NCBI GenBank assembly: GCA_945874155.1
Contig: CAMCFO010000001.1
Span: 62,001 to 126,000, forward strand
Reading direction: 5' to 3'
DNA: 64,000 nucleotides
Source: an uncultured Bacteroidales bacterium
Lineage (GTDB): Bacteria > Bacteroidota > Bacteroidia > Bacteroidales > UBA932
Under the pieces are notes generated by a model, which had not been told where the DNA came from, did no database searches, and saw only the letters and a program-made list of their open reading frames with translations. Of this stretch, positions 7,725 through 51,139 are shown in pieces. Within the stretch, counting starts at the first letter, position 1. Each line of letters starts with the position of its first letter. The translations under genes were made by a program, and so were the position numbers.

Positions 7725-9217
7725 TGTTCAGAAATTTCAAACAAACTGTTATGGCAGCTGCAATCCTCCTTGCAGCTGTCTCCTCCTGTGCAAAGGACAA
7801 GAAACCTGCATGGACCCCGGACGATTTCAGGGGCGGAAGTACGGAGTTGGTTCCTGTGGACGGCAAAATACACACCTATGCTCCGAAACTCTATTATTCC
7901 ATCTACGAATACTGTCGTGAGGCTGAAAAGAATACCAATGTTGCCATAAATATGACTGAGGCAGAGTGGCAGAGAACTATTGATTTTGTCGCCGAAAACC
8001 TCAAGCCATACGGTTACGATATGATTGTCACAGACGGGTTTATGGCAATGTGGTCAGACAACAGCCCCGAGTCCAAAGGGTATATGACCCACTATGGGGA
8101 GAATAAACTCACCCGTCTTGTGGAGATGTGTGCAGAGAAGGGACTTAAGCTCGGAATCTATGACAACCCGCTCTGGATTCACGGGGATGACAATTATTAT
8201 GTGGAGGGTACAGGCACAAAGTTCGGTGACCTCAAGTACAACAGTTCGGATAATGTTCTCAAGCCTGGAAGCACAGATTCCTTCCCTTGGGCAGTTCCTA
8301 GCCACAAGGGATGCAGGGAGTTCATCGACGGCTTCTTCAAGTATTACAAGAGCATAGGGGTGGATTATATACGAATGGACTTTATGTGTCTGTTCGAGAC
8401 AGGTGACGGAGCAGGCGGAATGCCCGGAAAGGGCTATGGAAGGGACGAATATGAACTTGCTCTCAAGTATATCTGTGAATCTGCCCAGAGATACGGGGTC
8501 TTTACATCCATAGTTATGCCGAATCTCACCAACTGCGGTTCCCTTGAACTTCAGAAGGTAAACGAGTTCCGTTTCAGTGCCGACACTTTCGACGGCGGAT
8601 GGGGACACGTTTCCAGTTGGGTATGGGGAGAAATCAACGGCTGGGACAGGGTGAAAGGAAGCTGGCCAAGCTGCCACAACATCTTTGAGGGATTCATTTT
8701 CTGGTCCCAGTTCACAGGACCTGACACTGCAATGCCGGACGGGGACTTCATCAGGCTCAATACACTCACCGAAGAGGAGTGCAGGACAGAAATCACCATT
8801 GACATAGTAGCCGGAGCAGGCCTCAAGCCTACAGACCGTCCTGAAATCATCCAGCAGGAGCAGCACAAAAACAAGCTCAAATACCTTCAGAACGAACAAG
8901 TTCTGGAAATACTCAAACAGCACTGCATCTGCAAACCGCTTTCCACAGACATCTGGAATGAGAAGTCCCAGATCTGGCATGGAGTGATGCCGGACGGCGA
9001 CCACATCCTTGCCCTCTTCAACAGGGAAGACGAGACCAAGTGGAGATACGCCTCATTCTCTGACCTGGGACTGGACCCTTCTTCCATAGAGGAGGTGAGG
9101 GACCTCTGGTGGGACTACAACTGCGGCTTCTATGACGAGGGCGCCAATGCCGAAAACGGAATCGGCTTCAATATCACGCCGCACGATGTGAAGCTGATGC
9201 GGATATACTTGAAGTAA
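7721..9217 (+). CDS. Putative glycoside hydrolase, clan GH-D-like (alpha-galactosidase/melibiase-like) lipoprotein
   Basis: Lipobox AVSSC, (beta/alpha)8-like strands YGYDMIVTDGFM, GLKLGIYDNPLW and GVDYIRMDF (candidate nucleophile). Overlaps the previous gene by 4 nt. Confidence 0.6.
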   Translation: MMFRNFKQTVMAAAILLAAVSSCAKDKKPAWTPDDFRGGSTELVPVDGKIHTYAPKLYYSIYEYCREAEKNTNVAINMTEAEWQRTIDFVAENLKPYGYDMIVTDGFMAMWSDNSPESKGYMTHYGENKLTRLVEMCAEKGLKLGIYDNPLWIHGDDNYYVEGTGTKFGDLKYNSSDNVLKPGSTDSFPWAVPSHKGCREFIDGFFKYYKSIGVDYIRMDFMCLFETGDGAGGMPGKGYGRDEYELALKYICESAQRYGVFTSIVMPNLTNCGSLELQKVNEFRFSADTFDGGWGHVSSWVWGEINGWDRVKGSWPSCHNIFEGFIFWSQFTGPDTAMPDGDFIRLNTLTEEECRTEITIDIVAGAGLKPTDRPEIIQQEQHKNKLKYLQNEQVLEILKQHCICKPLSTDIWNEKSQIWHGVMPDGDHILALFNREDETKWRYASFSDLGLDPSSIEEVRDLWWDYNCGFYDEGANAENGIGFNITPHDVKLMRIYLK

Positions 9218-9424: not shown

Positions 9425-11683
9425 ATGAAAACAAACAAACTTATTGCTGCAGCACTGCTGCCACTTATGTTCTCTTGCGCTAAGGAGAACATCAACCAAA
9501 ATGACATTACGACACAGGGAGGTTTTGATATTTCTATCACAGCCATTTCAGATGCTCCTTCAAAAGCCATATATGATGATGAAAAGGGTATTTTATGGGA
9601 TAATCCTCGTAAAGCAGGCTTAGTTAAGAAGGATGGTACAACCGCTGCCTTTTCTTCTTCTGAAATTGTTTCCGTATCTGATGACAAGCAGAAAGCAACT
9701 TTCTCATTTTCAGACATAACTACTGATTATTACAGATTGTATTATCCATATACAGATGATACTTATTATCGGAATATTAAGTTTGCTGTACCAAGAATTC
9801 AACATTCAACCCCCGGTTTCTCTTCTGACATAATTGCGGGTGTTGCATCTGAGGATGTCCATGTCCAAGAAAGTTATACCAATGATGCGACTGTCAAGTT
9901 TCTGACGGTAGGCTCATACATTAAATTTGCTGTTTATGGAAAACCTGGAGTTAAGGTGCACTCTATTCAAATAGAGGCTAATGAGGGGCTTGGCGGATAC
10001 TATATGGTAGATCCTAACAAGGATGAAAAAAATGAGATATACTATACTGATATAAAGCATTATGACAAAACTCTTGTTGTGGAAGTGTCTGGCGGTTATT
10101 CAATTTCTGAAAATAAAGACAACGCCAAGGGTATATATGCCAGTGTACTTCCAGGCACTTATACCAATCTGGTTTACAAAGTGATAACAGATGAGGGAGA
10201 CTACTATACATTCAAACCTACGCTAACAAACTCATTTGAAGAGGGAACTATAAAACAAGTTAATTTGAATCTTTCTCACGAAAAGTGTGAGATTTCATCT
10301 GTTCCTTCCAAACTATATCTCTTCGGAGGAGCTACATTGGCGGGCTGGAATCAGTATAACCCAATCCCTATGACTTATGATTCGAAGACTAACTCTTTCT
10401 CTGCAAATGTTTATCTTGAGAAAGAACTCAATGGTAATGATACAGATGGATTCAAATTCCTCACCCGACAAGGATTCTATGAGGGAGTTTATGTGAATGA
10501 TGGAGAAGGAAAGATGAAGTATTATGAGATTGTCCCTGATGCTGATGATATAAAATTCACAGCGCCTGCAAATGGTTATTATACTGTGACGGCAAATTTC
10601 AATGATATGTCTGTTTCTGTTGTTCCGGCAGTACCTGAAAAAATTTACCTTGTTGGAGGTAGTGATACGGATTATTCTTGGACGCCGAGCAGTGCTATTG
10701 AAATGACCAAAGAGGGAAATATTTTCAAAGCTAAAGCATACCTTATACCTACAAGTAAAACTTCAACAAATGGTTACAAGTTTTTGACATCATCAGATAG
10801 CTGGACCGGATGTTATGTTAATGATGGAAAGTACAAAGCCAAATATTATTCGAGTCCTTCCACTGGTTATGATATTAAGTTCACTGTTCAGGATGCTGGA
10901 TGGTACGATGTTACTTTGAATCTGGATCCCGCAAGTCAGGACTATGGACAAGTTCTGAATGCTAATCGTGCAGATCCAATTGTGCTTTCGAATAATGGTG
11001 AGTCGTATACTATGCTGCCAACCGGGAAGAATGTATTCACAACTTCAAAACTGATTCCGGCAGGTTCAGGTAAACATGATTTCAGTATTAAAAATGGAGA
11101 TAAGTATTATTACACATCTGCTGGAGGTTGGCTTGGGGTTTCTTTTGACAAAAGTGAAAAAGATAAGAGTTCTTCATATATAAAAGAAGTTACTTGTAAT
11201 TATGTAACACCTGATCAAAATAGAGGCTGGTATATTGTTGATGAATACGATAATCTGAACTACAAATTTACTTTGGATTTGAATTCCGATACAGAGCCAA
11301 AACTTACTCTTGAAATGATTCCTGGTACTGAATATTGGCTTGTTGGTCAGTTTAATGAAGGCAACAAAAAAGATGAGTACAAAGGAAATATAATTAATGA
11401 AGGGTTAGTTACTTGGGAAATTACAACCACTGTTTCCGGGGATTGGTTTTATATATTGGGGGCTTCTACTGAGGACGAAAAATATTTCTCTACCAATAGG
11501 AAAAAAGCTGATGGAAGTGATGATTTATTCAGCTTTAATGACAATTGGCCAGCAGGATGGGGAAGTGATCTTGGCGTATGTTTTAATTCCTCAGGTCAAA
11601 GTTGGAGGTTAGATACAACAGGTAATTTCAAGATTACATTTGATTTCAAAAATCTAAAAATAAAGGTAGAAAAGCAGCAATAA
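9425..11683 (+). CDS. SusF-like outer membrane lipoprotein with two tandem glycan-binding-like modules
   Basis: Lipobox PLMFSC. Internal repeat KLYLFGGATLAGWNQYNPIPM...FKFLTRQGFYEGVYVNDGEGKMKYYE versus KIYLVGGSDTDYSWTPSSAIEM...YKFLTSSDSWTGCYVNDGKYKAKYYS. The tracked start is 9416; the ATG at 9425 (MKTNKLIAAALL) is more plausible. Confidence 0.6.
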   Translation: MKTNKLIAAALLPLMFSCAKENINQNDITTQGGFDISITAISDAPSKAIYDDEKGILWDNPRKAGLVKKDGTTAAFSSSEIVSVSDDKQKATFSFSDITTDYYRLYYPYTDDTYYRNIKFAVPRIQHSTPGFSSDIIAGVASEDVHVQESYTNDATVKFLTVGSYIKFAVYGKPGVKVHSIQIEANEGLGGYYMVDPNKDEKNEIYYTDIKHYDKTLVVEVSGGYSISENKDNAKGIYASVLPGTYTNLVYKVITDEGDYYTFKPTLTNSFEEGTIKQVNLNLSHEKCEISSVPSKLYLFGGATLAGWNQYNPIPMTYDSKTNSFSANVYLEKELNGNDTDGFKFLTRQGFYEGVYVNDGEGKMKYYEIVPDADDIKFTAPANGYYTVTANFNDMSVSVVPAVPEKIYLVGGSDTDYSWTPSSAIEMTKEGNIFKAKAYLIPTSKTSTNGYKFLTSSDSWTGCYVNDGKYKAKYYSSPSTGYDIKFTVQDAGWYDVTLNLDPASQDYGQVLNANRADPIVLSNNGESYTMLPTGKNVFTTSKLIPAGSGKHDFSIKNGDKYYYTSAGGWLGVSFDKSEKDKSSSYIKEVTCNYVTPDQNRGWYIVDEYDNLNYKFTLDLNSDTEPKLTLEMIPGTEYWLVGQFNEGNKKDEYKGNIINEGLVTWEITTTVSGDWFYILGASTEDEKYFSTNRKKADGSDDLFSFNDNWPAGWGSDLGVCFNSSGQSWRLDTTGNFKITFDFKNLKIKVEKQQ

Positions 11684-11859: not shown

Positions 11860-12798
11860 CTATTTAATTGAGTCAAAAGCCTTGACGATGCGGGTGACGA
11901 GCGGGTGGCGTACGATGTCCGCATTGCTGAACTCTATGGTGGCAATGCCCGGGATGCCTTTGAGAAGGTTCATTCCGCGTATCAGGCCGCTGTCCGCCTT
12001 GTTGGGCAGGTCAATCTGGGTGGCATCTCCGGTCACGATGAACTTGGCATCCCGCCCCATTCTGGTGAGAAACATCTTCAACTGCCCGAGGTTGGTGTTC
12101 TGCGCCTCGTCCAGGATTACGCACGCGCGGTCCAGGGTTCGTCCCCTCATATAGGCCAGAGGCGCAATCTGAATTGTGCCGTCAGTGATGAATTCCTGCA
12201 ATTTTTTCGGGGGAATCATATCCCCGAGCGCATCGTAAAGCGGCTGCAGATAAGGGTCCAGCTTGTCCTTGAGGTCCCCGGGCAGAAAGCCCAGCCTCTC
12301 TCCGGCCTCCACTGCGGGCCTTGTTAGTATGATTCTCTTCACCTCCCTCAGTTTCAGGGCCCTCACAGCCAGGGCAATTGCCACATAAGTCTTGCCCGTA
12401 CCCGCAGGCCCGATGGCAAAGGTCAGGTCATTCTCGAAATAGGCTCTCACCATCCTTTCCTGGGTGGCATTGCGGGCCTTCACCGGCTTGCCCTCGTTGT
12501 TGTGGACGATAATCTGCGCCCCGTCCGCAAACGCCTGTTCCTGACTGATTCCCTCGTCGAACAGAGCCTCCACGTCATAGCGGCTCAGGCTCCTCTTGTG
12601 CATCCTCTTCTCGACCAGCTGGTCCAGCTTGGCATTGAAAGCTGTCACATCGGCCTGGCTCCCGTCCAGAAGAAGTTCATTACCCCTGGCAACCACCTTG
12701 AGTTCAGGAAACCTGCCGCACATAATCTCCAGCAGCTTGTTGGCTGGTCCATAAATCTCAACCGGGTCAATTGCTTCAAGGATAATCTTTTTCTTCAT
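11860..12798 (-). CDS. phoH: PhoH family ATPase
   Basis: Walker A FAIGPAGTGKTYVAIALAV, RPAVEAGERLGFLPGDLKDKLDPYLQPLYDAL, VILDEAQN, GDATQIDLP. Confidence 0.92.
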   Translation of the reverse strand: MKKKIILEAIDPVEIYGPANKLLEIMCGRFPELKVVARGNELLLDGSQADVTAFNAKLDQLVEKRMHKRSLSRYDVEALFDEGISQEQAFADGAQIIVHNNEGKPVKARNATQERMVRAYFENDLTFAIGPAGTGKTYVAIALAVRALKLREVKRIILTRPAVEAGERLGFLPGDLKDKLDPYLQPLYDALGDMIPPKKLQEFITDGTIQIAPLAYMRGRTLDRACVILDEAQNTNLGQLKMFLTRMGRDAKFIVTGDATQIDLPNKADSGLIRGMNLLKGIPGIATIEFSNADIVRHPLVTRIVKAFDSIK

Positions 12799-39713: not shown

Positions 39714-41264
39714 ATGTTGTACCCGATAGGCATACAGAATTTTGAGGATTTGCGCAGAAGCGAATACGTTTATGTGGACAAGACAGCTCTCATATATCGT
39801 TTGGTTTCTACTGGCAAATATTATTTCCTCAGCCGCCCGCGCAGGTTCGGCAAGAGCCTGCTCATATCCACTATGGATGCTTATTTCTCCGGCAAGAAGG
39901 TGCTGTTCAAAGGCCTGGCTATAGAGCAATTGGAGAAGGACTGGATTGAATATCCTGTGCTTCATTTGGATTTGAACAGCAGCAAATATATTAATCCAGT
40001 AGATTTGGATGTCGTGCTGGATCAGCAACTTAACAACTGGGAAGCAGAATACGGAATTGCACGTAAGTATGATGACTGTTCAGCCAGAATGAACGATGTC
40101 ATCGATGCTGCCTGCCGCAAGACCGGCCGAAAGGTGGTCATTCTTATTGACGAGTATGACAAGCCTATTGTGAACAATCTGGGCAATGAAGCACTGGTTG
40201 ATTATTACCGCAAGACCCTCCAGGGATTCTACAGCGTATTGAAGGCAAAGGACGGACAAATCAAGTTCGGTTTTCTGACAGGCGTGTCCAAGATTGGCAA
40301 ATTGAGCGTATTCAGCAGCCTTAACAACTTGACTGACATATCTATGAATACAGACTTTTCTGATATCTGCGGCATATCAGAGAGTGAGTTGAAAGACTAT
40401 TTTGATGATAGCGTGAGCGACCTTGCTTTGCAAAATGCTATGACCAAGGATGATTGTTATGCCCGACTTAAAAAAATGTACGACGGATATTACTTCGACA
40501 GAAGTATGACGGTCGGTGTATATAATCCGTTCAGCATTCTGAATACATTCTATTCCAAGGATTTCGGGGAGTATTGGTTTGAGACAGGCACTCCGACGCT
40601 CCTGGTCAATGTTATGAAGAAGACATTGTTCGATGTGCCTACTTTATCTGACAAAGTCGTAGTGTCGGCGGATGATTTGAGCGGTATGCAAGATATCATC
40701 AATAACCCAATTCCTCTATTCTATCAGACAGGATATCTGACAATCAAGGGATACGATAAGGAATTTAAGGAATATACCCTCGGATTTCCGAATGATGAGG
40801 TCAAAACCGGTTTTCTGAAGTTTATTTACTCCTATTATGTCCCCGCTAACCCGTCAGAAGGCAAAACAATGACTTCAAAAATGGCGAGAGCGCTCAGAGG
40901 TGGCGACCCTTATTCGTTTATGAGGAGTTTGGAGGCATTGTTTGCAAATACCACCTACCAGATTCAGGGCGATGCCGAGAAGAATTTCCAGTATGCGATG
41001 TACATCATAATGGAACTCCTCGGAGAATATGTCCAGGCAGAACGCAGCACCAGCAACGGCCGGATTGACCTGCTGCTCCAGACCAAGGACTACATCTACA
41101 TTGTCGAACTGAAAATCGACAACTCTGCCGAAGCCGCCCTGCAGCAGATTGAGGACAAGGGCTATGCAAAGCCATTTGTGGACGACCCGAGAAAACTCTT
41201 CAAAATCGGCGTAAGTTTCTCCACCGCCAACAGAAGGATTGAGGACTGGAAAGTTTCCGAATAA
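39714..41264 (+). CDS. AAA-ATPase-like protein with C-terminal PD-(D/E)XK nuclease-like domain
   Basis: N-terminal YPIGIQNFEDLRRSEYVYVDKTALIYRLVSTGKYYFLSRPRRFGKSLLISTMDAYF; VVILIDEYDKPIVNN; C-terminal GRIDLLLQTKDYIYIVELKIDNSAEAALQQI. Confidence 0.88.
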   Translation: MLYPIGIQNFEDLRRSEYVYVDKTALIYRLVSTGKYYFLSRPRRFGKSLLISTMDAYFSGKKVLFKGLAIEQLEKDWIEYPVLHLDLNSSKYINPVDLDVVLDQQLNNWEAEYGIARKYDDCSARMNDVIDAACRKTGRKVVILIDEYDKPIVNNLGNEALVDYYRKTLQGFYSVLKAKDGQIKFGFLTGVSKIGKLSVFSSLNNLTDISMNTDFSDICGISESELKDYFDDSVSDLALQNAMTKDDCYARLKKMYDGYYFDRSMTVGVYNPFSILNTFYSKDFGEYWFETGTPTLLVNVMKKTLFDVPTLSDKVVVSADDLSGMQDIINNPIPLFYQTGYLTIKGYDKEFKEYTLGFPNDEVKTGFLKFIYSYYVPANPSEGKTMTSKMARALRGGDPYSFMRSLEALFANTTYQIQGDAEKNFQYAMYIIMELLGEYVQAERSTSNGRIDLLLQTKDYIYIVELKIDNSAEAALQQIEDKGYAKPFVDDPRKLFKIGVSFSTANRRIEDWKVSE

Positions 41265-41279
41265 GCGAACACAGCACTA

Positions 41280-41582
41280 ATGTTCATCCCGGCCGTGAAG
41301 GAAGCCGAATCCCGCCTGAAATGCACTTCAGACGTGAATTACAGAGAATCCATAGAAGAGAACAATTTCCTGCCGCTTCTGAGTGACAGGGAGAAGGATG
41401 TGTTGATATGTGTGGCCAAGGGTATGAGCAACAAGGAAATAGCCGAACAGCTCTATGTCTCGGTCAATACTGTTTCAACCCATCGCCGCAACATTTCCTC
41501 CAAACTGGACATCCACACTTCCGCCGGCTTTGTCATCTATGCTCTGGCGCACAAGCTGGTGCTGCTGGAGGACATAAAATAA
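41280..41582 (+). CDS. LuxR-type HTH protein, probably the C-terminal remnant of a larger regulator
   Basis: LSDREKDVLICVAKGMSNKEIAEQLYVSVNTVSTHRRNISSKLDIHTSAGFVIYALAHKLVLLEDIK is a canonical LuxR HTH. No receiver domain precedes it; only ~35 aa upstream. Confidence 0.75.
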   Translation: MFIPAVKEAESRLKCTSDVNYRESIEENNFLPLLSDREKDVLICVAKGMSNKEIAEQLYVSVNTVSTHRRNISSKLDIHTSAGFVIYALAHKLVLLEDIK

Positions 41583-41591
41583 TGGCGGCAA
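41538..41591 (+). repeat. Direct repeat copy 1: 3' end of the luxR-type gene
   Basis: TATGCTCTGGCGCACAAGCTGGTGCTGCTGGAGGACATAAAATAATGGCGGCAA. Confidence 0.9.
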
Positions 41592-41927
41592 TTACGCTTC
41601 AGGATCAGAGAGATATATTGATCTTTCCTGTTGGGGAAGCATATAACTGTGAACAACTGAAGAAGTCGGCTGAATTATGGCCTCTCCCAAGACTTTGGTG
41701 ATTTTGGCTATAGTCGCTATCGTGAAGTTATGTGTCCCGGACAACCATCGGCTTACCTCCGTTTCTGTCTTTCCCATCATCCGGGCCAAATCTTTCTGAG
41801 TCATATTTCTTTGTTCAAGACACTCGTAAATCCTGTTGGCAATTGAAACCGACAATTCAGTCTGAATTATCATTTCAGGCATCATAGTCTTTCTGATTTC
41901 ATCCATTATTTGATTTGTCCTTTTCAT
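41592..41927 (-). CDS. XRE-family HTH protein, antitoxin-like
   Basis: RIYECLEQRNMTQKDLARMMGKTETEVSRWLSGTHNFTIATIAKITKVLG; overlaps the upstream gene by ATGA (41924-41927). Confidence 0.75.
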   Translation of the reverse strand: MKRTNQIMDEIRKTMMPEMIIQTELSVSIANRIYECLEQRNMTQKDLARMMGKTETEVSRWLSGTHNFTIATIAKITKVLGEAIIQPTSSVVHSYMLPQQERSIYLSDPEA

Positions 41928-42403
41928 ATCTCTATTGTAAATGAAAGTTCTCCAAGCAACTTAGACCCCTTAATTATTATTTCTCTGCACACTTCCTTAT
42001 TACGTATTTGTATATCAATTTTTTGAAGGACCTCAACGCATCCTTTTAGAACTGAGTCTTCTTCATAAGTTCTGGTTGTCTTCAATCCTCCATTACCAAG
42101 AATTAATATCTTTGATTCAATGTTCAGTAAATATACTCGCAACTTAGAAGTTTCCAAATATGAGGGAAGAGCCATTACCCGATCTGAACGTTTTCCCTCA
42201 TATCGAAAATGTCTGTCTGCTGCCCCGTCTCTTTTGACTATATCCAAGCGATATACAATCTGTGCGATATCCGATGGATAATCGTCTTTAAAGTCCAAAA
42301 GAAATTTTTCAAATTCAGTATATTCTTCTCCTGAAAAACGTGGTGAATAAAGGCTGACTTTATCACCTTCCTCCAACAATTCAATCAATAGATCACGCCT
42401 CAT
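41924..42403 (-). CDS. RelE-superfamily-like putative toxin
   Basis: Start chosen at MRRDLLIELLEEG (42403); the tracked ORF to 42553 runs backward into repeat copy 2. YLETSKLRVYLLNIESKILILGNGGLKTTRTYEEDSVLKGCV is RelE/HigB-like; the order toxin then XRE antitoxin is HigBA-like. Confidence 0.5.
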   Translation of the reverse strand: MRRDLLIELLEEGDKVSLYSPRFSGEEYTEFEKFLLDFKDDYPSDIAQIVYRLDIVKRDGAADRHFRYEGKRSDRVMALPSYLETSKLRVYLLNIESKILILGNGGLKTTRTYEEDSVLKGCVEVLQKIDIQIRNKEVCREIIIKGSKLLGELSFTIEI

Positions 42404-42418
42404 GTCTTCAATTTTTTG

Positions 42419-42450
42419 CAAAAATAAACATATAAGTTGATTATTGCAAA
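42419..42450 (-). promoter_or_regulatory. Cassette-internal promoter: TTTG (42450-42447), 20-nt spacer, TATTTTTG (42426-42419), minus strand
   Basis: Matches the Bacteroidota promoter pattern and supports the start at 42403. Confidence 0.6.
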
Positions 42451-42499
42451 TTTTACACTCAGCATTTATCACACAATTCTCGTCATTTTTATCCGGCCT

Positions 42500-42553
42500 T
42501 ATGCTCTGGCGCACAAGCTGGTGCTGCTGGAGGACATCAAATAATGGCGGCAA
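42500..42553 (+). repeat. Direct repeat copy 2 of the luxR 3' end
   Basis: 53/54 identical to copy 1 (ACATAAAA to ACATCAAA). Confidence 0.9.
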
Positions 42554-42571
42554 CCTCTCAGCCTGCCGCCT

Positions 42572-42829
42572 TCAGAGATGAACAAAAGGCTTTTGGTCAT
42601 CCCCTATATTCTTTGTTGAAACCTTCTTTAGAAAAACGGCAAAAGGAATATGAATGATTCCTTCCCATTTTGATGAATCCATATAAGGTGTCATAGATAT
42701 GACGTATTTGGGGTAGTTGTCTTTGACAGACCCGGCGGCTGCCGACTTAATTTTGTTGTTTATACTAAACAAATTAAAATATTTTTGCAGTTTGTTCATT
42801 ATAATACTTATGACTTTTTGTCCGCTCAT
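42572..42829 (-). CDS. Small ORF of unknown function inside the second cassette
   Basis: 85 aa; an alternative start at MNKLQKYFNLFS. No family recognised. Confidence 0.3.
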   Translation of the reverse strand: MSGQKVISIIMNKLQKYFNLFSINNKIKSAAAGSVKDNYPKYVISMTPYMDSSKWEGIIHIPFAVFLKKVSTKNIGDDQKPFVHL

Positions 42830-42916
42830 TGATAGCGAGGCTACCAGAGAAACGTCAAAAAGGCAATGAATAAGGTCTATGCAAAAGCTGGGGAGAATTC
42901 TTCAGAAAGGGCTTCA

Positions 42917-42951
42917 TGGTGCTGCTTGAGGACATAAAATAATGGCGGCAA
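42917..42951 (+). repeat. Direct repeat copy 3 (35 nt) of the luxR 3' end
   Basis: TGGTGCTGCTTGAGGACATAAAATAATGGCGGCAA, 34/35 identical to copy 1. Confidence 0.88.
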
Positions 42952-42970
42952 ACTGTCCGCCTGCCGCCAT
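42942..42970. terminator. Bidirectional terminator-like hairpin of tyrS and the repeat unit
   Basis: ATGGCGGCA ... TGCCGCCAT inverted repeat; the minus-strand tail is TTATTTTATG. Confidence 0.6.
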
Positions 42971-42997
42971 CGGGTTTGGATGGTTAAGTTTCTCAGC

Positions 42998-44287
42998 TTA
43001 CTCCACCTTTATAATATAATAGTTCTTCTTTCCACGCTGGGCAAGTATGTATTTGCCGTCGAGTATGGACTCTTCACCTATTGCGGCGTTGATGTCGGTG
43101 ACTTTTTCCTTGTTTATGCTCACTCCGCCGCCCTGAATCATTTTGCGGCATTCGCCCTTGGAAGGGAATACGGAGGTCTCGACAGCCAGCAGTTCAAGTA
43201 TGTTGCAAGGCAGTTTGTCCCTGGAAACAGTGAAGGTGTCCACTCCGTCGAACACATCCAGGAAGGTTTTTTCGTCAAGAGACCTGAGCTGCTCGGAGGT
43301 CGCGTTGCCGAAAAGTATTGCGGAGGCTGAGACGGCATTGTTGTACTCGGCTTCTCCGTGCACCATAACGGTCACTTCCCTGGCGAGGAGTTTCTGGAGG
43401 CTGCGTGCGCCCGGATTTTCCCTGTGGGCGGCGATTGCGCCTTCGATGGTCTCCCTGTCGAGGAGGGTGAATATCTTGATGTATCTCTCTGCATCTTCAT
43501 CACTTACGTTGAGCCAGAACTGGTAGAAGCGGTAAGGTGAAGTCCTCTGAGGGTCCAGCCAGATATTGCCTTTCTCCGTCTTGCCGAACTTGGTGCCGTC
43601 AGCCTTGGTTATGAGCGGGCAGGTGAGTGCGTAGGCTTCCTTGCCGAGCATTCTGCGTATGAGTTCGGAACCTGTGGTGATGTTGCCCCACTGGTCTGCT
43701 CCGCCCATCTGGAGAACGCAACCCTTGTGCTCGTAAAGGTAGAGGAAGTCATAGCCCTGAAGGAGCTGGTAGGTGAATTCGGTAAAGGACATTCCTTCGC
43801 GGGACTCGCTGGAGAGGCGTTTTTTGACGCTGTCCTTGGCCATCATATAGTTCACCGTGATGTGCTTGCCTATGTCGCGGGTGAAGTCGAGGAAACTCCA
43901 GCCTTTCATCCAGTCGTAGTTGTTGACGAGTTCGGCACAGTTGCCGGCTCCGGATTCGAAATCGAGGAAGCGGGAGAGTTGCTCCCTGATGCAGGAGACA
44001 TTGTGGCTGAGGGTCTGCTCGTCCAGAAGGTTCCTTTCCTGGGATTTCATAGAAGGGTCGCCAATCATTCCCGTTGCACCTCCTACCAGAGCTATGGGTT
44101 TGTGTCCGCACTCCTGAAAATGCTTGAGAATCATAATGCTGACCATATGTCCGATGTGGAGGGAGTCGGCAGTCGGGTCAATCCCCACATAGGCAGCCGT
44201 CGGTCCTTCCATAAGTTTCTCCTCTGTGCCGGGCATAATGTCCTGAATCATACCCCTCCATTTGAGTTCTTCTACGAAATTCTTCAT
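42998..44287 (-). CDS. tyrS: Tyrosyl-tRNA synthetase
   Basis: [58 protein letters not shown]4-like C-terminus. Confidence 0.95.
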
Positions 44288-48584: not shown

Positions 48585-50066
48585 ATGGATAATTACGCAA
48601 AATATTTGAAGAATCCCGTATTCGGAATTTTCTCCGAGGTGGCGGAACAATATGATTTCAAGGCCTTTGTAATAGGTGGTTACGTAAGGGACTGTTTCCT
48701 GGGTCGTTCCAGTGATGATATTGATGTGGTGGTTGAGGGCAGCGGAGTGGATTTTGCCAACAAGGTTGCCGCCCGCCTTGAGGAAATCGAATATTCACAA
48801 CATAAGACCCGCCACAAAATCAATGTGAGCGAATTCAAGACCTATGGTACGGCTATGATAAAGTACCGCGGACTCGAACTCGAATTCGTGGGAGCCAGAA
48901 AGGAAAGTTACCGCAAGGAATCCCGCAATCCCATAGTGGAAAACGGCAGCCTCACCGACGACCAGCTGCGCAGGGATTTCACCATCAATGCTATGGCATT
49001 CAGCCTGTGCAAAGAGGATTTCGGTGCCCTGGTGGACCCTTTCGGCGGCCTCTCGGATTTGGAAAGGGGCATTATTCGCACCCCTCAGGACCCGGATATC
49101 ACCTTCAGCGATGATCCGCTCAGGATGTTGCGTGCAGTGAGGTTTGCCACGAAACTCTCCACCCCTCAGCTTCAGTTCTGCATCACCCCCGAGTGTATGG
49201 AAGCGATGCGCCGCAACCGGAACCGCCTTCAAATCCTCACCCGCGAAAGGATAGCAGAAGAACTGAACAAGATGCTGGTAGTCCGCAAACCGTCCAAAGC
49301 CTTCCGCCTTATGGATGAAGCCGGACTTCTCGATCTCATACTCCCTTCACTCACAGCTCTAAAAGGAGTGAATGTGATGGACGGCAAGGGACACAAGGAC
49401 AATTTCGACCATACTCTCCAGGTTCTCGACAATGTCGCCGAACTGGAAATGGAGTCGAGACCGGAACCGAATGTATGGCTTCGCTGGGCCGCACTGTTGC
49501 ACGATGTGGGCAAGGCCAGGACCAGGAGATATGATCCTTCAGTGGGTTGGACCTTCCACGGGCACGAGGTTGTGGGCGGACGTATGGTCCCGAAGATTTT
49601 CTCCTCCCTCAAACTTCCGCTAAACGAGAAGATGGAATATGTTAAGAAACTCGTGGAACTGCATCTGAGGCCTATAGCCCTTGTTACTGAAGAAGTTACG
49701 GACTCTGCTGTGAGGCGTTTGCTCTTCGAGGCGGGAGACGACATAGACGATTTGATGATACTTTGCCACGGGGATATCACTTCCAAGAACCTGCGCAAGG
49801 TGGAAAGACTGCACGCCAATTTCGAACTCGTGCAGCGCAAACTCGTGGAGGTGGAGGAAAAGGATGCAATACGCAATTTCAAGAATCCTATTGACGGGGA
49901 CTATATTATGAAACTCTTCGGCATTGAGCCCTGCAGGACCATCGGAGAGCTCAAGGAATATGTCAAGGAGGCCATTCTCAACGGGGATATTCCTAATGAA
50001 TTCGAGGCGGCGGATGCGCTTATGCGTGGTCGGGCTGCGGAACTTGGACTGGTGCCCAGGGAATGA
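48585..50066 (+). CDS. cca: CCA tRNA nucleotidyltransferase / HD-domain protein
   Basis: FVIGGYVRDCFLGRSSDDIDVVVEG, RRDFTINAMAFSL, LRWAALLHDVGKARTRR (HD). Confidence 0.9.
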   Translation: MDNYAKYLKNPVFGIFSEVAEQYDFKAFVIGGYVRDCFLGRSSDDIDVVVEGSGVDFANKVAARLEEIEYSQHKTRHKINVSEFKTYGTAMIKYRGLELEFVGARKESYRKESRNPIVENGSLTDDQLRRDFTINAMAFSLCKEDFGALVDPFGGLSDLERGIIRTPQDPDITFSDDPLRMLRAVRFATKLSTPQLQFCITPECMEAMRRNRNRLQILTRERIAEELNKMLVVRKPSKAFRLMDEAGLLDLILPSLTALKGVNVMDGKGHKDNFDHTLQVLDNVAELEMESRPEPNVWLRWAALLHDVGKARTRRYDPSVGWTFHGHEVVGGRMVPKIFSSLKLPLNEKMEYVKKLVELHLRPIALVTEEVTDSAVRRLLFEAGDDIDDLMILCHGDITSKNLRKVERLHANFELVQRKLVEVEEKDAIRNFKNPIDGDYIMKLFGIEPCRTIGELKEYVKEAILNGDIPNEFEAADALMRGRAAELGLVPRE

Positions 50067-51139
50067 TACCAAAGAATGATACCGGGGTAATGATGAACAA
50101 GATGGATAGGGACGGCAACAACAGCAGCGGATTGGAAGCCCTGGTGGAGCAATTCCTTATCAGAGCAAAAAGTGTAAGGCGTTATTCATCACGAACTTGT
50201 GAACTGTACGCCGATGCTCTGAGGAGGTTTTGTGACTATCTTGGGGGAGGTACGTCCCAAAGCATCACCTCCCGAGTCATCCGCGACTATGAAGTCCATC
50301 TTCTCGAAGACTGCGATATGCAGCCCAAGACCGTCAACCTGCACCTGAGTGTGCTGAGCTCATTCTGTGCCTTCCTTATGCTCTCCGGCGAACTCAAGTC
50401 CAATCCCGTCAAGACCGTACGCAGGCCCAAGGTCCCAAACCGTCTGCCGGATTTCTACCGCAGCGAACAGATGCAGACTTATTTTTCCGGGACGGAAATC
50501 TATGCTTCCGAGGAATTTCTCGAAACTTTCCGTCAGAACCTGGCTCTTTCCGCAACTTCCGACAATGGCAAGGACTGTCTGAAGGCAGCGAAGGAGCTGT
50601 ACGGCAAACGTCTGGAGAGAGTCATCATCAGCACCCTGGCTATGCTCGGAATACGTCGCAGCGAACTCATAGGCCTGAATGTCGGCGACTTGGACATATC
50701 CCGTAAAGTGATGACAGTCAGGGGAAAGGGAGATAAAATGCGAGAAATTCCGGTTTTGGATGCACTATGTCAGGAAATATTGCTATATTTGAAAGCAGTT
50801 GAGGCTTTGAAGGGAGGGAAAAGAACTGCAGAGGAGCCTATGTTTGTGACCTGGGACGGGAAAAGGATTTATCCGGTACTCGTGGACAGGACGGTGAAAG
50901 GGCGTTTCGCCGATGTTTCCGGGGTAACCGGAAGGCGTTCACCCCACGTGCTCAGACATACTCTCGCAACGGGTCTGCTGGACCGGGGCACGGATTTGAA
51001 TTCCATCAAGGAAATGCTCGGACACTCATCCCTCGCGGCGACGCAGGTCTATACCCACAACTCCATCGCCAAACTGAAACAGGTTTATAAATCAGCCCAT
51101 CCGAGGGCCAAGAACAAAGGAGGTAATTATGGAGATTAG
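50063..51139 (+). CDS. Tyrosine-type site-specific recombinase, XerC/XerD-like
   Basis: MLGIRRSELIGLNVGDLDI, SPHVLRHTLATGLLDRGTDLNSIKEMLGHSSLAATQVYTHNSI (R...HxLRH...H...Y). Confidence 0.9.
   Translation: MIPKNDTGVMMNKMDRDGNNSSGLEALVEQFLIRAKSVRRYSSRTCELYADALRRFCDYLGGGTSQSITSRVIRDYEVHLLEDCDMQPKTVNLHLSVLSSFCAFLMLSGELKSNPVKTVRRPKVPNRLPDFYRSEQMQTYFSGTEIYASEEFLETFRQNLALSATSDNGKDCLKAAKELYGKRLERVIISTLAMLGIRRSELIGLNVGDLDISRKVMTVRGKGDKMREIPVLDALCQEILLYLKAVEALKGGKRTAEEPMFVTWDGKRIYPVLVDRTVKGRFADVSGVTGRRSPHVLRHTLATGLLDRGTDLNSIKEMLGHSSLAATQVYTHNSIAKLKQVYKSAHPRAKNKGGNYGD

Follow-up and report, generated by a model that had tools for sequence, protein, structure and literature searches.

Repeated gene 3' ends flank small, recombinase-free modules whose order differs between sister Bacteroidales species

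CIMEs are att-flanked stretches of DNA without a recombinase that form tandem arrays on a common gene-tail att site and can be mobilised by a helper integrase; they have been reviewed together with the tandem accretion of ICEs and IMEs at gene 3' ends (PMC5704250). The array described here, at the 3' end of a luxR-type gene of an uncultured Bacteroidales bacterium, resembles CIMEs. Specifically, related attL/attR-like direct repeats flank its modules, and the one or two genes identified in each module include no recombinase, integration or transfer gene. Unlike CIMEs, modules of this kind are ~0.8–1.6 kb long, carry one or two genes and occupy the ends of many different genes; a parent ICE or IME with a matching att site was not found here. 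The ssrA islands of Dehalococcoides are likewise tandem, with a direct repeat of the gene 3' end between islands, and some have no integration module (PMC3146451); however, they use a single target and many contain serine recombinase genes, whereas here the targets vary and the modules, with one or two genes, have no recombinase. In tDNA islands mapped by Islander (PMC4383910), as here, a restored target gene lies on one side and a displaced fragment on the other, and one of our repeats begins in the anticodon loop of a tRNA-Ala gene. Islander requires an integrase gene, while no integrase is present inside the modules described here, and their targets are mostly protein genes. Like integron cassettes, the modules are small, arrayed and reorderable, with a repeated hairpin-bearing recombination site between them. 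Unlike in integrons, no integron integrase was found, no attC appears to be common to the different sites, the target is a gene tail, and the genes of the modules run in either direction with respect to the target gene. We found no description of minimal ATPase or M64 elements of this kind in the open literature, which is weak evidence of novelty.

The locus lies in a 64-kb stretch of DNA, hereinafter designated the window, and contains the following features.

39714–41264, plus strand: gene for a 516-aa protein with AAA-ATPase_like and PDDEXK_9 domains, next to the luxR remnant on its upstream side (Pfam PF09820, PF08011)
41280–41582, plus strand: 3' remnant of a luxR-type regulator gene, GerE domain, 5' part missing (PF00196)
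41538–41591, plus strand: tail copy 1, at the luxR/M64 junction, without the right hairpin arm (repeat comparison)
41592–41927, minus strand: M64 module, Cro/C1-type HTH protein, antitoxin-like, 111 aa (PF01381; PADLOC PDC-M64C/B, E 5.7e-27)
41924–42412, minus strand: M64 module, 162-aa partner, putative effector or toxin (PADLOC PDC-M64B, E 5.4e-40; no Pfam match)
42500–42553, plus strand: tail copy 2, at the M64/ATPase junction, hairpin extending to 42570 (repeat comparison)
42572–42916, minus strand: remains of a PDC-S01 module, AAA_14-DUF4143 ATPase (aligned with the intact 407-aa genes of sister genomes G146 and G230)
42917–42973, plus strand: tail copy 3, at the junction of the ATPase with the tyrS side, 57 bp including the hairpin and ATCGG (repeat comparison)
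42998–44287, minus strand: host gene tyrS, convergent on the array, right border (PF00579; 97% identity in G146 and G230)
50063–51139, plus strand: Xer-type tyrosine recombinase gene outside the element (best match TIGR02224, XerC family, below the equivalog cut-off)

Repeat comparison agrees with the original prediction that the 54-nt luxR tail occurs three times, at 41538–41591, 42500–42553 (53/54 identical) and 42917–42951 (34/35). Across the window there is no second direct repeat of at least 30 bp within 8 kb, and a search of the 2.59-Mb genome for the 35-nt core, allowing up to 3 mismatches, gives exactly three sites, all at the luxR array. The repeats are thus confirmed as real and far beyond chance similarity, and the suggested source of recombining luxR tails elsewhere in the genome is not supported, because the core is confined to the array locus. 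The repeated unit consists of the final luxR-type codons, the stop codon and a terminator-like hairpin, GGCGGCA...TGCCGCC, for which 0 occurrences are expected by chance. As had been described, the hairpin is retained in copies 2 and 3 (42546–42570 and 42944–42968), while copy 1 ends at 41591, abutting the stop codon of the HTH gene, and the right hairpin arm is missing. With its hairpin, copy 3 measures 57 bp and matches the homologous copies in the sister genomes. Single-strand folds of the tail copies show no gain in stability over shuffled sequence, so support for a terminator role comes from sequence symmetry. The hairpin is found at the luxR array locus only, ruling out a dispersed palindromic repeat, and an Rfam search of 41–43.3 kb gave no match.

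The tail is indeed that of a luxR-type gene, but the gene in the window proves to be a 5'-truncated remnant. Its 311 nt (41281–41591) are 97.7% identical to the longer luxR of G230 (at least 171 codons), and its ORF start falls inside the N-terminal domain. Two minus-strand modules lie between the tails, as proposed. In the first, the HTH protein adjoins its partner protein, the pairing of PDC-M64. The AlphaFold model of the partner is poor (pLDDT 43), and its profile retrieved no convincing relative from the PDB. In the second, ORF85 (42572–42829) is spurious: a 407-aa ATPase gene has suffered an internal deletion, which fuses its C-terminal end (42572–42731) to the upstream region (42749–42916). 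The ATPase belongs to AAA_14-DUF4143 (PADLOC PDC-S01, E 1.4e-129). By their PADLOC assignments, PDC-M64 and PDC-S01 are candidate defence families, with a putative anti-phage function.

Among 400 genomes of the same genus scanned for the core, with one genome per species, the core is present, besides the window genome, in only two sister species, G146 and G230, corresponding to the MAGs Rikenellaceae bacterium SUG662 and SUG550. The genomes compared are assemblies, several of them fragmented MAGs, and contig ends cut several sites. Genes flanking the array share 93–97% DNA identity among the window, G146 and G230. The order in the window is cydB, PDDEXK gene, luxR remnant, tail, M64 pair, tail, ATPase remnant, tail and tyrS. 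In the same orientation, G146 has cydB, umuDC, luxR remnant (85 nt), tail, intact ATPase, tail, M64 with its effector gene mostly deleted, tail and tyrS. G230 has a Fic gene, the longer luxR, tail, intact ATPase and tail, with no M64; a SusC/SusD operon and a peptidase gene separate this array from tyrS on the same contig. The order of the M64 and ATPase modules is thus reversed between the window and G146, and content, order and number differ among relatives, as the search for sites with other cassettes had been meant to reveal.

All eight junctions in the three genomes fall within the 35-nt core GGTGCTGCTKGAGGACATMAAATAAWGGCGGCAA, one decayed copy having a few extra point differences. The right end of M64 is always the identical 54-nt tail and that of the ATPase is always the 35-nt tail plus hairpin, which indicates that each module travels as a unit with its tail.

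Using ATPase relatives from the genus, we compared upstream with downstream flanks at a repeat score of at least 16. A flanking direct repeat is present at 10 of 47 ATPase loci, compared with 8 of 2162 mismatched flank pairs; none was found at 29 tyrS loci or at 27 luxR loci, and other luxR genes are therefore rejected as hotspots. The remaining 37 ATPase loci, and most M64 loci, have no flanking repeat. Two of the ten repeats are of other kinds (IS-like, CRISPR-like), two are the luxR site and the rest are gene ends. At hflX and at the DAHP synthase-chorismate mutase gene, an intact ORF end lies on one side and a tail fragment beyond the ATPase module. The tRNA-Ala site has a 54-bp repeat, with two tail copies, and its contig has no complete tRNA joined to either. 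A 57-bp gene-tail repeat surrounds another ATPase locus, at a gene with no assigned identity, and the locus in G177 has a short gene-tail repeat. In G431, a lipoprotein gene tail occurs three times around two modules, an array resembling that of the window. When match ends replaced ORF ends for the ATPase paralogues in three genomes, the luxR site alone was recovered.

A PDDEXK_9 gene on contig C139 of G230, 69% identical to that of the window, lies antisense at the 3' end of carB, where a 100-bp tail repeat (93%) likewise leaves an intact ORF end on one side and a tail fragment on the other. A restored gene with a displaced 3' fragment is thus seen at hflX, DAHP-CM and carB. The carB case is the only one with a flanking repeat among 17 PDDEXK_9 loci, and PDDEXK_9 genes in general were rejected as carriers of the pattern. 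A tRNA gene lies within 600 bp of the ATPase at 6 of 49 loci, where ~0.5 would be expected assuming 45 tRNAs per genome of this size, and its 3' end faces the module in all six. Displaced tRNA tails are present at just one tRNA-associated ATPase locus, and none was found within 5 kb beyond the other tRNA-adjacent modules. The sequence of the repeated tail differs from site to site, and the surveyed loci include none with an empty carB, hflX or DAHP-CM site. Together, these comparisons support a tail-restoring pattern that generalises beyond luxR.

Several loci were set apart because their flanking repeats are not gene tails. L225 has an IS/MITE-like 25-mer, and L218 and L301 have CRISPR-like repeats. 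An ATPase relative in L301 (G436), at ~9.2–10.8 kb, has a gene tail (KPYxxIVDSI...) on one side and the CRISPR-like repeats CACAGAGCCACTTCCACTACAACAAGGATTAAGAC on the other; a CRISPR-like array is also present at 1.7–2.4 kb. L246 and L257 have dispersed intergenic repeats: M64 pairs lie between intergenic repeats in L257 and L310 (G291) and in L246 (G232), with repeats of 131 bp and 43 bp. L309 (G113) has an intergenic palindrome, a 44-bp palindromic direct repeat (95%) at 9129–9172 and 12197–12240, around an ATPase and a lipoprotein gene, ~3 kb. In L298 (G285), an ATPase followed by a barstar-like gene (9626–11231) has a diverged intergenic repeat of ~128 bp on both sides.

Differences between the two tail copies are mainly synonymous. 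Specifically, 16 of 27 differences in the coding part at non-luxR sites are synonymous versus 5.7 expected (P about 1.6e-5), in a small sample whose frames were picked knowing that the tails were gene ends. This bias suggests that both tails were once functional gene ends in separate alleles and, by the same sequence comparison, that one tail was probably supplied by the module while the other is the displaced native tail. Such allele-like divergence fits integrating islands, where the split target gene is made whole again and a displaced piece remains (PMC4383910), and is unlike local duplication.

The Xer-type gene ~7 kb from the array does exist, but it is not linked to the array site, because in both G146 and G230 its orthologues sit on contigs other than that of the array; it was rejected as the agent. 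None of the PF00589 matches in G000, G146 and G230 adjoins the array. An NCBIfam scan of part of these matches, three recombinases (two accessory tyrosine recombinases and the Xer of the window), gave 57–79 bits against the TIGR02249 cut-off of 265. With module genes in both orientations and a target that varies between sites, this speaks against the integron-like array that had been offered as one reading. A search covering tyrosine recombinases found them in 2 of 20 extended ATPase-module regions, at distances of ~2 and 6 kb. The core does not turn up beside a recombinase: it is missing from the other genomes among the 400 of the genus and from the GTDB and viral contigs searched. A search of viral contigs also gave no ATPase.

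The array looks like a recombination site where small recombinase-free packages enter, leave and swap places. We favour, with a probability of about 55%, integrase-less att-flanked mini-elements that form a tandem array at a gene 3' end, use a recombinase in trans and are CIME-like. Each module bears at one end the last ~35–57 bp of the target gene, with the stop codon and often the terminator. Recombination between module tail and resident tail would insert the module with one tail on each side, like attL and attR, and successive insertions would stack modules in tandem in an order that may change. A site-specific recombinase from another element, probably a tyrosine recombinase, would act in trans, presumably on circular intermediates. 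The att-like insertion at a gene tail that the original prediction put forward is borne out by the varying order and number in the sister species, the junctions within the core and the recurrence of the pattern at other genes. The variation of the target between sites is hard to square with one integrase, and with no empty site or circular junction found it leaves homologous recombination or a novel insertion mechanism viable as well. Repeats of 35–57 bp suffice for low-level homologous recombination. RecA could act between these tails, by excision and reinsertion of circles or by transformation with module-plus-tail DNA, and no dedicated recombinase would be needed, in agreement with the lack of a recombinase near the array and with the differing repeat extents (54 bp at M64 junctions versus 57 bp at ATPase junctions). 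We consider this possible but doubtful: it does not account for how modules at numerous unrelated genes first came by a tail of their target, or for why the 3' ends of genes and tRNAs are preferred.

That repeats at unrelated sites are alike in length (57, 54, 57 and 54 bp) and that two AAA-PDDEXK families, DUF4143 and PDDEXK_9, show the pattern would also be expected from a long target-site duplication of ~55 bp, possibly made by AAA-plus-PD-(D/E)XK proteins, with survival of gene-preserving insertions only. The remaining gene-tail repeats, however, span 23–100 bp, mainly synonymous tail differences are not expected from local duplication and drift, and M64, which has no AAA-PDDEXK protein, shows the pattern at luxR; such duplication is therefore unlikely. 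Each genome here has several to many AAA-ATPase/PD-(D/E)XK genes (DUF4143, PDDEXK_9). That these genes are themselves mobile, inserting at gene or tRNA 3' ends and supplying a replacement tail with no classical recombinase, while M64-like modules hitchhike at the repeats, seems improbable to us. That all three copies lie inside 1.4 kb would also fit chance similarity or the simple tandem duplication of a longer stretch, but we give these next to no weight: the segments between copies are unrelated and swapped between species, which excludes simple tandem duplication, and the window has no other direct repeat of such length within 8 kb. If mini-elements using a recombinase in trans are the right reading, single-gene candidate defence packages would spread and reshuffle in gut Bacteroidales via gene 3' ends with no recombinase of their own, which would help to account for the abundance of AAA-PDDEXK genes in such genomes. 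The signature of a restored gene end, a module and a displaced tail would then find very small mobile units missed by island finders that require an integrase.

The 5' truncation of luxR differs among the three genomes, with ~311 nt left in the window, 85 in G146 and 520 in G230. The neighbour at the truncation differs as well (PDDEXK gene, umuDC and Fic gene, respectively), which may reflect repeated replacement of the luxR 5' side. The M64 partner is also present on three predicted viral contigs in IMG/VR (L332:5001–5908, L330 and L331); in L332, an HTH gene comes after the partner gene. The M64 of G059 is nearly identical to that of G146 (97% DNA identity, versus 76% for tyrS), pointing to horizontal transfer of M64 or, as the G059 contig is 3.6 kb long, to a binning error. 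In both (G146 L097:7017–7454 and G059 L204:1–359), the M64 effector is deleted at the identical joint and the HTH gene is retained. The effector-less M64 could be a travelling antitoxin-only module with an anti-addiction role.
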